Below, one piece after another: positions 13,684 to 19,817 of a stretch of 64,000 nucleotides of DNA. The stretch is taken from positions 1-64,000 of the forward strand of contig NZ_JALJRB010000016.1 in assembly GCF_022968795.1 (NCBI RefSeq), written 5' to 3'. The translations under genes were made by a program, and so were the position numbers. Position 1 is the first letter of the stretch. Each line of letters begins with the position of its first letter. The DNA is from Desulfatitalea alkaliphila (GTDB lineage: Bacteria > Desulfobacterota > Desulfobacteria > Desulfobacterales > Desulfosarcinaceae). The notes beneath the pieces were generated by a model. That model ran no database searches. It saw nothing but the letters and a program-made list of their open reading frames with translations, and was not told where the DNA came from.

Positions 13684-13700
13684 CCACAAAGGAGTTGCCA

Positions 13701-15242
13701 GTGGGACTTGCCTTTCGTGACGGTACCATCGTCAAACCCTACGAACGTCTGGACAAGGAGGAGATCATCCGGCTGCACAAGGCCTCCCTGGCCATCTTGG
13801 ACAGCCCGGGCATCTGGTGTTACAACGAGCGCGCCGCCAAGCTGATGGGCGCTGCGGGCGCCAAAGTGAGCGAGGCCGTCGAATTCGGCCAGACCCTCTG
13901 GCGCATCCGGTTGCCGGCCGGTTTGGTGGAAGAGTGTGTCGCCATGGCCCCGTCGCAGGTGGTGCTGGGCGCCCGCAAGCCGGAAAACCGTCTGCTGCTG
14001 GACGCCGGCACGCCGCGCATCTATTTCGGTTCCGGTTCGGAAACCAATGTCTGGTTGGAAACCGAGATGCAATCGTTCACCAGCGCCGACGGCGGTGAGA
14101 CGGTCCAAATCCCCCGTTTCCAGAAGCGGCGCGGCAGTGCGGCCCTGTTGTGCCGGGCGGCCCATTTGGGCGAACAGCTTGAACACCTGGATTTCTTCAT
14201 CCGGCCGGTGAATGTGCAGGACGAAGGGGTGACCGAAGACAACCACGACGTCAACAAGTTCTTCGCTAGCCTCAACAACATCACCAAGCACGTGCAGGCC
14301 GGCCTGACGCGCACCGACCGCCTGGCCGACCTGGTGCGCATGGGCGAAATCATCACCGGCGGGCCGCAGGCATTGCGGGAGAATCCCATTTTTTCCTTCA
14401 TCGCCTGTGTGTTCAAAAGCCCTTTGCAACTGGTGCAGGACACCGCCGACAAGGTGTTCGCCATCGTGGAGGCGGGGCTGCCCATTGTGATCAGCTCTTC
14501 TCCCCAGGGCGGCAGTTCGGCCCCGATCCAGGAGGCCGGCATGGTGGCCCAGATCAACGCCGAGATTCTGGCCGGCGTCACCTTCACCCAGCTCATCCGT
14601 CAGGGGGCGCCGGTTCTCTACGGCAGCGTTCCGGTGCGCGCCCGCATGGACGACTTGCACGATCTGTACGGCTGCCCGGAATTCAACCAGTACAACATCG
14701 ACTGCGCCCAGCTGGCCCGCCATTACGAGATTCCCTGCTACTCCACCGCCGGCGTGGGCGATGCCAAGGTGCCGGGCATGCAGGCCATGTTCGAAAAGCT
14801 GTTCACCCACCTCTACATGGCCATGAGCGGCGCCCAGTACATCCATTACGCCTTCGGTCTGCTGGACCGCACCAACACCTTCTGCCCGGTGCAGGCGGTG
14901 ATCGACGACGAACAGATCGGCAAGGTCAAACACTGCCTGCGGGCGCCCAAGGTGGGCGAAGCGGAGGCGCAGGACGCCGTGGCCATGGTGGAAAAGGTGA
15001 TGGGCACCAGCCACCGTCTGTTCGCCCGCCATGCCCGCAAAGCGATTCACAGCGGCGACGTGTCCGACCCCTACCGTTTCGAAGCCAAGGGAATGGAGGA
15101 CGAAGTGATCGCCCGCGCCTTGGACCGACTGGCCGAGATCGAAGCACTGCCGCCCGTCCATCTGCCGGCGGCGACGGTGGACCGCATCTTCGAAGAGGTG
15201 CCGGGTCTGCTGCCCCAACTGCGTGTGTCACAGGACGCGTGA
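13701..15242 (+). CDS. Non-pyrrolysine MttB-family corrinoid methyltransferase, paralogue 2
   Basis: 513 residues, same MttB superfamily as the gene at 11283 but clearly divergent from it, so probably with a different methylamine or betaine substrate. No in-frame amber codon. The start is taken as GTG 13701 because AAAGGAG sits six bases before it; the upstream TTG 13695 overlaps the end of that site. The C terminus (FEEVPGLLPQL) parallels the LEEIPGIQPFL end of paralogue 1, a shared family tail. Ends 50 bases before the corrinoid protein gene. Confidence 0.88.
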   Translation: MGLAFRDGTIVKPYERLDKEEIIRLHKASLAILDSPGIWCYNERAAKLMGAAGAKVSEAVEFGQTLWRIRLPAGLVEECVAMAPSQVVLGARKPENRLLLDAGTPRIYFGSGSETNVWLETEMQSFTSADGGETVQIPRFQKRRGSAALLCRAAHLGEQLEHLDFFIRPVNVQDEGVTEDNHDVNKFFASLNNITKHVQAGLTRTDRLADLVRMGEIITGGPQALRENPIFSFIACVFKSPLQLVQDTADKVFAIVEAGLPIVISSSPQGGSSAPIQEAGMVAQINAEILAGVTFTQLIRQGAPVLYGSVPVRARMDDLHDLYGCPEFNQYNIDCAQLARHYEIPCYSTAGVGDAKVPGMQAMFEKLFTHLYMAMSGAQYIHYAFGLLDRTNTFCPVQAVIDDEQIGKVKHCLRAPKVGEAEAQDAVAMVEKVMGTSHRLFARHARKAIHSGDVSDPYRFEAKGMEDEVIARALDRLAEIEALPPVHLPAATVDRIFEEVPGLLPQLRVSQDA

Positions 15243-15292
15243 TTGCGACCCAACCAATAAAATCCGATCCAATTTATAAAAGGAGTGCACCG

Positions 15293-15976
15293 ATGAATCA
15301 AACAGAGCTGATCGAAAAAATCAATTTCAACATTATTCAAGGGCGCATGACCGCCGAGGACGAAGGCTTCGACGAAGGACTGGAAGGCCAACCGGCGGTG
15401 ACCGAGTTGATCGAGCAGGCCGTCGAAGCGGGCATCGACGCCAAGATCATCGTGCTCGACGGGCTGACCGGCGCCATGGAGACCGTGGGCGCCAAATTCG
15501 ACAAGGGGGAGTACCTGATTCCGGACATGTTGGCCTCGGCCGAGTGCGTGGGGGCGGCCATGGACATCCTGGCGCCGTTGTTGGCCGACGCCGGCGTGGA
15601 GAGCAAGGGCAAGTTCGTCCTGGCCACGGTGGCCGGGGATCTGCATGACATCGGCAAGAACATCGTGGCCATCATGCTCAAGGGGGCCGGGTTCGAGGTG
15701 CTGGACCTGGGCAACGACGTTACCACCGGCCGCATCGTGGAGGCCGTCAAGGCCAACAACGCTCAATTTCTGGGCCTTTCGGCCCTGCTGACCACCACCA
15801 TGCGGGAGATGGGCGTGGTGATCAAAGCCCTGGAAGAGTCCGGCCTGCGCGACCAAGTGCGGGTCTTGATCGGCGGTGCCCCCACCTCTGAGGCCTTTGC
15901 CGCAGAGATCGGCGCCGATGCGCACTGCCGGGACGCTTTTCATGCCATCGACCTTTTACGCCAGATGGCAGCATAG
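15293..15976 (+). CDS. Corrinoid-binding methyl carrier protein (MtgC/MttC type)
   Basis: 227 residues with an N-terminal helical cap domain (about 1-90) and a Rossmann-like B12-binding domain. The cobalt-ligating motif DLHDIGKN is present with His118, followed by the SAL motif and the IGGAP loop that hold the nucleotide tail. It shuttles methyl groups between the MttB enzymes and the MtgA-like protein. ATG 15293 is preferred over a longer reading from 15239 since AAAAGGAG lies just before it. It is the only corrinoid carrier in the cluster, so both MttB paralogues probably share it. Confidence 0.93.
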   Translation: MNQTELIEKINFNIIQGRMTAEDEGFDEGLEGQPAVTELIEQAVEAGIDAKIIVLDGLTGAMETVGAKFDKGEYLIPDMLASAECVGAAMDILAPLLADAGVESKGKFVLATVAGDLHDIGKNIVAIMLKGAGFEVLDLGNDVTTGRIVEAVKANNAQFLGLSALLTTTMREMGVVIKALEESGLRDQVRVLIGGAPTSEAFAAEIGADAHCRDAFHAIDLLRQMAA

Positions 15977-15986
15977 GCGGTATCCC

Positions 15987-17246
15987 ATGGCTGAAAAAAC
16001 CGCATACACCCAAGCCGCCGTGAGCGGCAAATACGACAAGTCATCGGGCCTGCTGGGCAAATACGACAACGTGCGTCGCTTCTGGGAGGACCAGCTGACC
16101 GGCATCTTTTTGCGACCGTCGCTCAACGATCTGGTGCAGCGCAAAAGCGAACGCATGGAGCGGCTGCGCATTCTGGACATCGGCTGCGGCAACGGCGACG
16201 GCTACGATCTGATCATGGACGTCAACAGCAAGGATGCCGGCATTTTCGAGTACATCACCGCCGCCATCACCGACGACCGGCTCCAGACCTACGTGGGCCT
16301 GGACATCAACGAAGAACTGCTGCAACAGGCCCAGGCCGGCTATGGCCAAAACCCCAAAGTGCAATTCGTGCAGGCCGATCTTTCCAACGGACTGCCCGAT
16401 GCGACACTGGAAGCGCCGCCCTTCGATCTTTACTTTTCCTCCTACGGTACCTTCTCCCACTTCGACACGGAGCAGACCGTGCGCCTCATGGCCGATGTGT
16501 GCCGCCATGCCTCCGACGGCGCGTTGTTCGTGGGCGATTGGCTGGGCCGCTACGCCTACGAGTGGCAGGATCTGTGGCACCATCCCGTCGACCAGGAGTA
16601 TTGGATGAACTACCGTATCTCCTACATCTATCCCGAGGCGGAGCGGGATCGGCACGACGTGGCGACTTTCCCCCTGCGGTTGTTGTGCGCCGACGAGATC
16701 CTGAGCATGGCGCAAGCCGCCGGCAAGGCGGCCGGTTGCACCCTGCGGCCGGTCAAGCTTTTCGACCGTTCGGTGCTCATCGGGCGCCACATGGACACGG
16801 GCGACTACAATCGCCATTGTCCCAAAATGCGCTATGCCGTCAACTCCCTGTTCGAAGGCTACACCCGTACCGACCTGGAGAGCGTGCGCGTGAACTATGT
16901 GCCGCGGCCGGGCTTCGACGCCCTGAACCATCACTTTGAAATGTTCTTCATGGCGGTAAACACCCTGGTGGACTACACCATCGCCTTGCTGGCCCATCAC
17001 GACCCGGGCCAAGGGGTGGTCGGCAATGTGCCGGAGATTCAACCCTACTATCCCGAACCGCTCAAGGAGACCATGCAGGCCATGCGGCGGGTGATCGAGG
17101 GGGTGGGGTGGCTGCAATGGGGCGATGTGCGCGCCAATGTGATCGAGCCCCATCTGGGCTACTGTCTGCGCAAGTTGGAGATGGAACTGCAGCAGGGCAT
17201 GGGCACCGGTCACAGCCTCTGCGGTATTTTCGAGATTAAGAAGTAG
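15987..17246 (+). CDS. Class I SAM-dependent methyltransferase of unknown substrate
   Basis: 419 residues, starting 10 bases after the corrinoid gene (ATG 15987; a longer frame reading overlaps that gene and is unlikely). The SAM-binding motif I is LDIGCGNGDGYDLI, motif II VGLDINEELL and motif III QADLSNGLPD. The C-terminal 200 residues form a long extension with no match I recognise (SLFEGYTRTDLESVRVNYVP and onward). It is the last gene of the operon. It could methylate a metabolite of the betaine pathway or modify a protein, but nothing in the sequence fixes this. The downstream microprotein gene at 17581 is 335 bases away. Confidence 0.8.
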   Translation: MAEKTAYTQAAVSGKYDKSSGLLGKYDNVRRFWEDQLTGIFLRPSLNDLVQRKSERMERLRILDIGCGNGDGYDLIMDVNSKDAGIFEYITAAITDDRLQTYVGLDINEELLQQAQAGYGQNPKVQFVQADLSNGLPDATLEAPPFDLYFSSYGTFSHFDTEQTVRLMADVCRHASDGALFVGDWLGRYAYEWQDLWHHPVDQEYWMNYRISYIYPEAERDRHDVATFPLRLLCADEILSMAQAAGKAAGCTLRPVKLFDRSVLIGRHMDTGDYNRHCPKMRYAVNSLFEGYTRTDLESVRVNYVPRPGFDALNHHFEMFFMAVNTLVDYTIALLAHHDPGQGVVGNVPEIQPYYPEPLKETMQAMRRVIEGVGWLQWGDVRANVIEPHLGYCLRKLEMELQQGMGTGHSLCGIFEIKK

Positions 17247-17545: not shown

Positions 17546-17580
17546 TTTCGCGGGGTGCACGCAGGTGAAAGGAGTCTGTC

Positions 17581-17742
17581 ATGAGTGATCAAGAGGACCG
17601 TTCGATCAGTTGCGAAATGGATACATCGGATGGGGAATCCCAATCCGATTTGACTTGTTGTTATACCATGGATGCGTCGGGCGATGCCCAGCCCCTCGAT
17701 GCCGCGGCGGCGGATGACTGTTGTTGCTGTTGCTGCTGTTAG
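17581..17742 (+). CDS. 53-residue acidic microprotein ending in seven consecutive cysteines
   Basis: A short reading frame from ATG 17581 to TAG 17740-17742, with a textbook ribosome binding site (AAAGGAG at 17568-17574, six bases upstream). The peptide has thirteen Asp/Glu against one Arg, so it is strongly acidic. Cysteines occur at 11, 26 and 27, and then as an uninterrupted run of seven at residues 47-53, the very C terminus (TGT TGT TGC TGT TGC TGC TGT). Mixed TGT/TGC use argues against a simple slippage repeat. There is no signal peptide. Such a tail could bind soft metals, be lipidated or disulfide-linked, or be a modified-peptide core. No maturation enzyme is adjacent; neighbours are a SAM methyltransferase and superoxide dismutase. 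Function unknown. Confidence 0.75.
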   Translation: MSDQEDRSISCEMDTSDGESQSDLTCCYTMDASGDAQPLDAAAADDCCCCCCC

Positions 17743-17770: not shown

Positions 17771-17864
17771 CGTTCCCGCTCGGTCGTTGTCGCTTTGCCG
17801 GTTCCATCCCAACGAGCAGCGGCACGGCGGGCGGGAACGTTAAGGGCTCATGATCGCGAGCCCT
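17771..17864 (+). promoter_or_regulatory. Structured leader of the superoxide dismutase gene
   Basis: CGTTCCCGC at 17771-17779 pairs with GCGGGAACG at 17831-17839, enclosing an inner stem (CGTTG with CAACG). A second hairpin, AGGGCTC (17843-17849) with GAGCCCT (17858-17864), ends directly before the AAGGGAGG ribosome binding site of the gene at 17880. The region could be a translational switch or a transcript-stabilising element; no known riboswitch is recognised. Confidence 0.4.
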
Positions 17865-17879
17865 AAGGGAGGTTCGACC

Positions 17880-18485
17880 ATGAAACATACATTACCGTCC
17901 TTACCCTATGCCTATGATGCATTGGAACCCTACATAGACACCCGTACCATGGAGATTCATCACACCAAGCACCACCAGACCTATGTCGACAAACTCAATG
18001 CGGCTCTGGAAGGTCACGAGGCGCTGCACGGGTCGCCGGTCGAGCAGTTGGTGCGCAACCTCAACGAGGTGCCCGAGGCCATTCGCACCGCGGTGCGCAA
18101 CCACGGCGGCGGCCATGCCAATCACAGTTTTTTCTGGTCCCTGCTCAAAAAGGAAGTGGCGGCGGCGGGTCCGGCGGTGGAGGCCATCAAAGGGCGCTTC
18201 GGCAGTTTCGAGAAGTTCAAGGAGGATTTCTCCAGCGCCGCGGCGTTGCTCTTCGGCAGCGGTTGGGCCTGGTTGGTGGTGAATCGCGGGCAGTTGGAGA
18301 TCATCACCACGCCCAATCAGGACAGCCCTTTGACCCAGGGCAAATCCCCCATCATCGGTCTCGACGTGTGGGAGCACGCCTACTATCTGCGGTACCAGAA
18401 CCGTCGTCCCGAGTACATCAGTGCCTTTTTCAATGTCATTGACTGGGAGCGGGTCAATACCCACTACAAGGCGTCCGTTTCCTGA
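17880..18485 (+). CDS. Superoxide dismutase, Fe/Mn family
   Basis: 201 residues, converting superoxide to oxygen and peroxide. Metal ligands are intact: His27 (MEIHHTKHH), His82 ([11 protein letters not shown]), Asp162 and His166 ([10 protein letters not shown]). The GGGHANHS and GSGWAWLVV sequences resemble manganese-type or cambialistic enzymes more than the classical iron type, but metal use cannot be decided by eye. No signal peptide, so cytoplasmic. ATG 17880 is favoured by AAGGGAGG just upstream; an in-frame ATG at 17850 lies in the hairpin loop. Downstream of the polycysteine microprotein gene, possibly co-transcribed. Confidence 0.95.

Positions 18486-19817
<1,332 letters not shown>

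Follow-up and report, generated by a model that had tools for sequence, protein, structure and literature searches.

An unannotated family of acidic, cysteine-rich microproteins with a repeated link to aconitase in Desulfobacterales

Metallothioneins carry a CxC cysteine pattern, and BmtA and SmtA are bacterial examples. The microprotein family described here resembles them in its small size, in a cysteine content of about 9–19% across its 17 members and in having no evident hydrophobic core. It differs from this general kind of protein in its vicinal CCC and CC clusters, its acidity and the absence of a Pfam or NCBIfam match.

A second comparison is with short frames containing runs of Cys codons. 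Poly-Cys attenuators have been reported in mycobacteria (Canestrari 2020, cited in PMC9094748 and PMC13236596). To the extent that these sources describe them, the attenuator frames share with the present family a Cys-codon run and a short frame upstream of another gene, whereas here the 53-aa window frame is led by a Shine-Dalgarno site, the peptide body is conserved in the family and the downstream gene varies.

The third comparison is with small proteins with VDPCGC repeats (family f43; L048 in genome G122 and L103 in G071). They have a similar acidic N-terminus, CC(x)Y core, DPC motif and terminal CC, but contain repeated [YF]VDPCGC units and match the family weakly (E 0.001–0.003). The gene studied here lies in a window of 64,000 nucleotides from Desulfatitalea alkaliphila (contig NZ_JALJRB010000016.1, positions 1 to 64,000).

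The window gene and its family

The product of the frame is MSDQEDRSISCEMDTSDGESQSDLTCCYTMDASGDAQPLDAAAADDCCCCCCC, followed by a stop. The first-pass annotation had described a frame with an AAAGGAG site, an ATG and ten Cys, seven of them terminal, and all of these were found where it had placed them (Table 1). The protein contains 10 Cys, 13 D+E and one K+R, with a computed charge of about −12. The tail codons are TGT TGT TGC TGT TGC TGC TGT. A first-order Markov simulation of 100 windows of 64 kb produced no run of at least five TGY codons before a stop; the real window has one, seven codons long. Inspection by eye revealed no signal peptide or hydrophobic stretch in the microprotein, and no evidence was found for the lipidation anchor suggested earlier. 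The product is probably a small acidic, cytosolic protein. AlphaFold gave no confident fold for the window protein or for the more typical member L077 (mean pLDDT 53 and 55, low confidence), with a weak hairpin over the core in both.

Table 1. Features of the microprotein locus in the window
Feature	Position	Strand	Basis
Acidic Cys-rich microprotein gene, 53 aa	17581..17742	+	ORF translation and homologues
Shine-Dalgarno AAAGGAG	17568..17574	+	Sequence; 6 nt 5′ of the ATG
Family-core remnant, codons 11–28: C11; LTCCY replacing LCCCY	17611..17664	+	Alignments A2, A5
Expanded tail: seven Cys codons and stop	17719..17742	+	Sequence; last nine codons without nonsynonymous change relative to G004
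Putative 7-bp hairpin immediately 5′ of the SOD ribosome site	17843..17864	+	Fold prediction; missing from the folds predicted between the genes in G001 and G009
Fe/Mn superoxide dismutase (SOD), next gene downstream	17880..18485	+	PF00081, PF02777; NF008177 below cut-off

The tblastn search of 60 relatives (E 1 or less) matched 11 genomes, of which seven, the window included, proved to carry the family; a second tblastn query added G009 and G006. A nine-row profile matched 9 of the 11 genomes of the window's genus and gave no convincing match in the other 19 genomes of the same taxonomic family (one at E 0.08). Order-wide profile searching at E 0.01 matched 19 of 389 sampled genomes. With a 16-row profile, 22 of the 389 matched, 17 strongly (E 1.6e-13 or better) and five weakly (0.001–0.004). 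The strong homologues ranged from 1.6e-13, the value of the window, to 1.4e-22; the window value comes from profile A5, which includes the window as a row. Searched as a single sequence, the window protein reached E 2.2e-7 to G004 and 3.5e-5 to G002. The phylum sample yielded two matches in 395 genomes, the window and G039, both members of the window's order. The distribution is patchy and order-limited in the samples searched. Six strong members matched named records, including Desulfatitalea sp. BRH_c12 (G009) and the Olavius algarvensis Delta 3 symbiont (G139).

Since homologues exist, the window frame is settled as a gene, and its reality is secure. A chance ORF was ruled out by the homologues, the Markov simulations and the reading of Cys-run places across the order. 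No match was found in Pfam, NCBIfam, PHROG or PDB for the rows tested (for Pfam and NCBIfam, among them the window protein P0001 and the nine rows of A2), no solved structure was found for the family, and searches of one open literature library listed no paper with a title on this family. The earlier statement that no named family has this architecture thus agrees with the libraries searched, and the family is an unnamed, unannotated one, defined here as the CCCY-DPC acidic microprotein family. The viral_contigs and plasmids sets contained no relative of the microprotein, and a phage or plasmid origin was dropped.

In the consensus, an acidic N-terminal part and a single Cys lead into LCCCY-x(9)-DPC-x(2)-PV, with two to four Cys near the end. 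All 17 members are acidic (computed charge −3 to −13), and AAAGGAG also precedes 8 of the 16 strong members other than the window. All copies but those of the window and G004 keep LCCC intact (as MCCC in G230). DPC varies more; within the genus it is lost or changed also in G002, G005, G006, G008, G010 and G004. The Cys count is 7–10 in 16 of the 17 members and 6 in G001, with shifting positions. A run of at least two Cys within the last 13 residues occurs in 16 of the 17 (2–7 long, 7 in the window), most members having a run of 2–4 and G001 none. In the window protein the LCCC and DPC core is no longer intact: LTCCY takes the place of LCCCY, and the Cys of DPC is absent. Like its sister in G004, the window copy is a divergent member with a loose body, lost core Cys and a seven-Cys tail.

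The frame is open in all nine genus copies, and the Cys run stands at or next to the end in eight of them. The exception is the G001 copy (L028:9542-9751), in which the LCCCY...DPC core is kept and another C terminus replaces the Cys tail. In G008 and G010, tblastn reported one internal TGA after GCCC. Selenocysteine read-through there was rejected and the TGA taken as a stop, because the close G005 copy ends at the same place and continues differently. An Oxalobacteraceae match (L083) was also dismissed, as it comprised 21 matching residues in a short frame without the remainder.

Among the close copies of G010, G008 and G005, dN/dS was about 0.12, 0.11 and 0.09, well under one. Purifying selection acts on the family protein, as the first-pass annotation had supposed.

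A scan of the order for six TGY codons followed by TRR found 34 places in 33 of 389 genomes, and 27 of these were inspected, including all 19 with a true stop. Four of the 19 showed an ATG-led frame of at least 45 aa with a ribosome site, namely the window and G004 (53 aa each), G061 (58 aa) and G154 (48 aa). The remaining 15 had frames of 7–39 codons from stop to stop. The G061 frame (L156; L158:8314-8490) and the G154 frame (L157; L159:8685-8831) belong to other taxonomic families of the order. Like the family, both are acidic and SD-led, with one or more inner Cys and a terminal run of six Cys in G061 and seven in G154. They differ in their neighbours and in their scores against the family profile, which are not significant (2.3 and −8.1 bits). 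Their pairwise match to the window protein, with filters off, was mostly due to the Cys tail. When the surrounding 13 and 18 kb were searched by tblastn at 1e-3, no match appeared to any of ten neighbour proteins (aconitase, trpS, UspA, SOD, the second microprotein described below and others). Judged from these comparisons, the two frames are not clearly homologous to the family and may be distant kin or convergent.

Neighbouring genes and the aconitase link

ORFs around the 17 strong members were clustered into 29 recurrent clusters, and a Pfam scan covered 28 of them, seven without a match at the limits used. Because ORF calling was mechanical, some genes were masked by antisense ORFs, among them the SOD of the window, the aconitase of G005 and the UspA genes of G008 and G010.

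A PRK07229-type aconitase (PF00330/PF00694; NF005558 above cut-off) lies on the same strand within about 2.3 kb of the microprotein in 8 of the 17 members (G001, G002, G005, G006, G008, G009, G010 and G139). Within the genus, where aconitase was counted at 71% identity or more to the G009 protein, it was present in seven of seven genomes with an LCCC copy and in none of the four with a divergent or lacking copy (two each; p 0.003, a value that ignores shared ancestry). These four are the window genome G000 and G004, with divergent copies, and G003 and G007 (86% and 73% complete), with no copy; their closest homologues reach at most 33%.

Outside the genus, aconitase at 68% identity or more occurred in five of eight strong-member genomes and in 5 of 67 member-less genomes (p 0.0007, again ignoring shared ancestry and with the threshold set after the data had been seen). 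This comparison drew on 80 chosen genomes. Five with weak matches were left out (G249 has a 48% homologue), and the 67 were hand-picked and mostly 90% or more complete. The strong members with aconitase were G099, G162, G139, G310 and G184 (a fragment), and in G099, G162, G184 and G310 it lies on another contig than the microprotein. G039, G230 and G212 (79% complete) gave no aconitase match. The member-less genomes with aconitase were G057, G037, G110, G056 and G046, and no family copy was found within 1.5 kb of these five aconitase genes. The family shows a repeated same-strand linkage to PRK07229-type aconitase, joined in part by trpS, UspA or SOD (trpS as TIGR00233 above cut-off, UspA as PF00582). 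The trpS gene lies in the same stretch of about 2.2 kb next to the microprotein in G001, G006, G008, G010, G139 and G310.

The link to SOD is weaker than that to aconitase. The window SOD begins 137 nt 3′ of the microprotein on the same strand. Conservation of the gene upstream of sod, raised as a check in the first-pass annotation, was limited to 3 of the 17 strong members (the window, G001 and G009) and one remnant in G004. On the G004 contig the SOD is reduced to a 17-codon start (L023:907-960) 3′ of the microprotein, through deletion or misassembly; other contigs of G004 carry two further SOD matches, one of them where a contig ends. In G002, G005, G006, G008 and G010 the SOD genes are located away from the microprotein, and the window genome carries another two.

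A second, basic Cys-rich microprotein lies directly downstream in G002, G005, G006, G008 and G010. It has the pattern KKARxCC..CDxC..CY..C (L051 and relatives; G005:C7:272292-272462) and occurs in 14 of the 60 relatives, often without the acidic partner. In G037 it directly adjoins the same aconitase. It shares with the family its small size, Cys richness and, in five genus members, its location, but it is basic, has a CC...CDxC...CY arrangement (alignment A3) and shows no profile similarity (hhalign probability 1.4). The second microprotein is followed in five genus members by a 454-aa protein (L025:9927-11288; matches L024, L026, L027 and L030), which has no Pfam or NCBIfam match.

Two small genes, DJC28_CD and one without a name, occur together 3.6–6.6 kb downstream in the window, G004, G009 and G039. 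This shared pair indicates that the microprotein gene has kept the same site in members of two taxonomic families. Upstream of the microprotein, the window contains MttB-like methyltransferase, corrinoid protein and SAM methyltransferase genes (13695-17246), and these had no match among the ORFs called around the other 16 members. A GH43 arabinanase-like gene with a lipoprotein-like start, judged by eye, occupies 18726-19817 between the SOD and a DUF3108 gene.

Proposed role and competing explanations

The Cys number is roughly kept, the positions move and no sign of a stable fold was seen, so a thiolate buffer is a better fit than an enzyme. Because of the link to aconitase, our leading guess is iron, Fe-S or sulfide chemistry in the vicinity of that enzyme. 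We tentatively suggest that the thiolates of these small acidic proteins buffer iron, Fe-S or sulfane sulfur, ancestrally for aconitase, and that the window copy was kept beside SOD. The [4Fe-4S] cluster of aconitase is labile. Carried on an acidic chain with little structure, the Cys of the CCC cluster, of DPC and of the terminal run would bind iron, an Fe-S cluster, another soft metal or sulfane sulfur, and the bound metal or sulfur may be buffered or re-supplied near aconitase. In the window genome, which lacks this type of aconitase, the gene would have stayed beside SOD and its body drifted; concentrating the Cys into the seven-Cys tail may have made it a more general thiolate buffer. The first-pass annotation had read redox, metal or thiol chemistry from the neighbouring genes. 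A metal or thiol role is plausible. The SAM methyltransferase among these neighbours had no blastp match among the ORFs called around the other 16 members.

A more specific version, which we regard as rather doubtful, makes the protein a dedicated aconitase partner. The acidic thiolate peptide, in some species together with the basic Cys-rich microprotein, would keep or reload the labile iron or [4Fe-4S] cluster of a PRK07229-type aconitase when relatives of sulfate reducers meet oxygen stress. Once that aconitase had been lost, the peptide would have been freed to become a seven-Cys sponge next to SOD, and other families of the order may have arrived at the same end form.

The vicinal CCC and the terminal CC(C) are also what a redox or sulfur carrier might use, its Cys forming persulfides or disulfides and passing on sulfur or electrons instead of holding metal. 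SOD and UspA neighbours and the occurrence of relatives among Desulfobacterales records are in keeping with such a carrier. None of the 28 Pfam-scanned recurrent neighbour clusters is a sulfurtransferase, thioredoxin or desulfurase (seven have no match), however, and we consider this explanation unlikely.

The window and G004 copies could instead be decaying remnants whose tail grew by slippage of TGY trinucleotides. The core Cys are lost, the linked aconitase is absent, and the body pN of this pair is 0.35, against 0.10 and 0.13 for two neighbouring proteins. Synonymous sites are saturated between the two copies, and the body shows 36.5 nonsynonymous differences per 105.5 sites. The last nine codons, in contrast, show none at 24 sites and three synonymous differences (Fisher p 0.0002, with 36 of 106 used for the body). 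This indicates that the tail is held and the body loose; the window body is weakly constrained. The frame, ribosome site, length of 53 and tail are kept in both species, and the order has other acidic frames that end in such tails, which makes decay fairly improbable.

Still less probable, and disfavoured, is a poly-Cys leader in the window copy, in which a shortage of Cys-tRNA would stall ribosomes at the seven Cys codons and so alter SOD expression. The Cys codons abut the stop, SOD follows closely on the same strand, and a scan of the window stretches found no promoter- or terminator-like site, including between the two genes. A hairpin is predicted beside the window SOD ribosome site, and the fold predicted for G009 pairs the SOD ribosome site (whole fold z −0.02). 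Fold prediction for G001 and G009 did not give the hairpin of the window, though, and the intergenic fold z of G001 is −0.65. The first-pass annotation had mentioned structured leaders, but the window folds were not clearly beyond shuffles (z −1.56 for the upstream stretch; −1.69 and −1.85 for the downstream one, which was folded in two cuts). With these values and a single Rfam match far below the gathering score, a riboswitch or structured leader was rejected. The leader reading also sits poorly with the conserved peptide body, with the usual Cys run of just 2–4 and with the varied downstream gene (SOD, trpS, the second Cys-rich protein or others; SOD next in only three members and the remnant). 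The G004 tail persists beside the truncated SOD start, itself possibly a misassembly, and no SOD was found in the 13 and 18 kb around the C6 and C7 frames of G061 and G154.

The earlier proposal of a precursor of a ribosomally made, thiol-modified peptide (RiPP) can hardly be right: it has the Cys-rich tail and the upstream SAM methyltransferase gene of the window in its favour, but that methyltransferase is unmatched around the other 16 members and no known modifying enzyme is among the 28 scanned clusters (seven without any match), although the 454-aa protein of the five genus members may be one.

If the thiolate-buffer reading is true, this unannotated microprotein family would have a connection to a central Fe-S enzyme and, in some cases, to the defence of anaerobes against superoxide. 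Cluster protection in anaerobes is an open question that the family would touch. The LCCC body with aconitase, the divergent body without it and the further C6- and C7-tailed acidic frames would form a natural series for the role of the poly-Cys tail.
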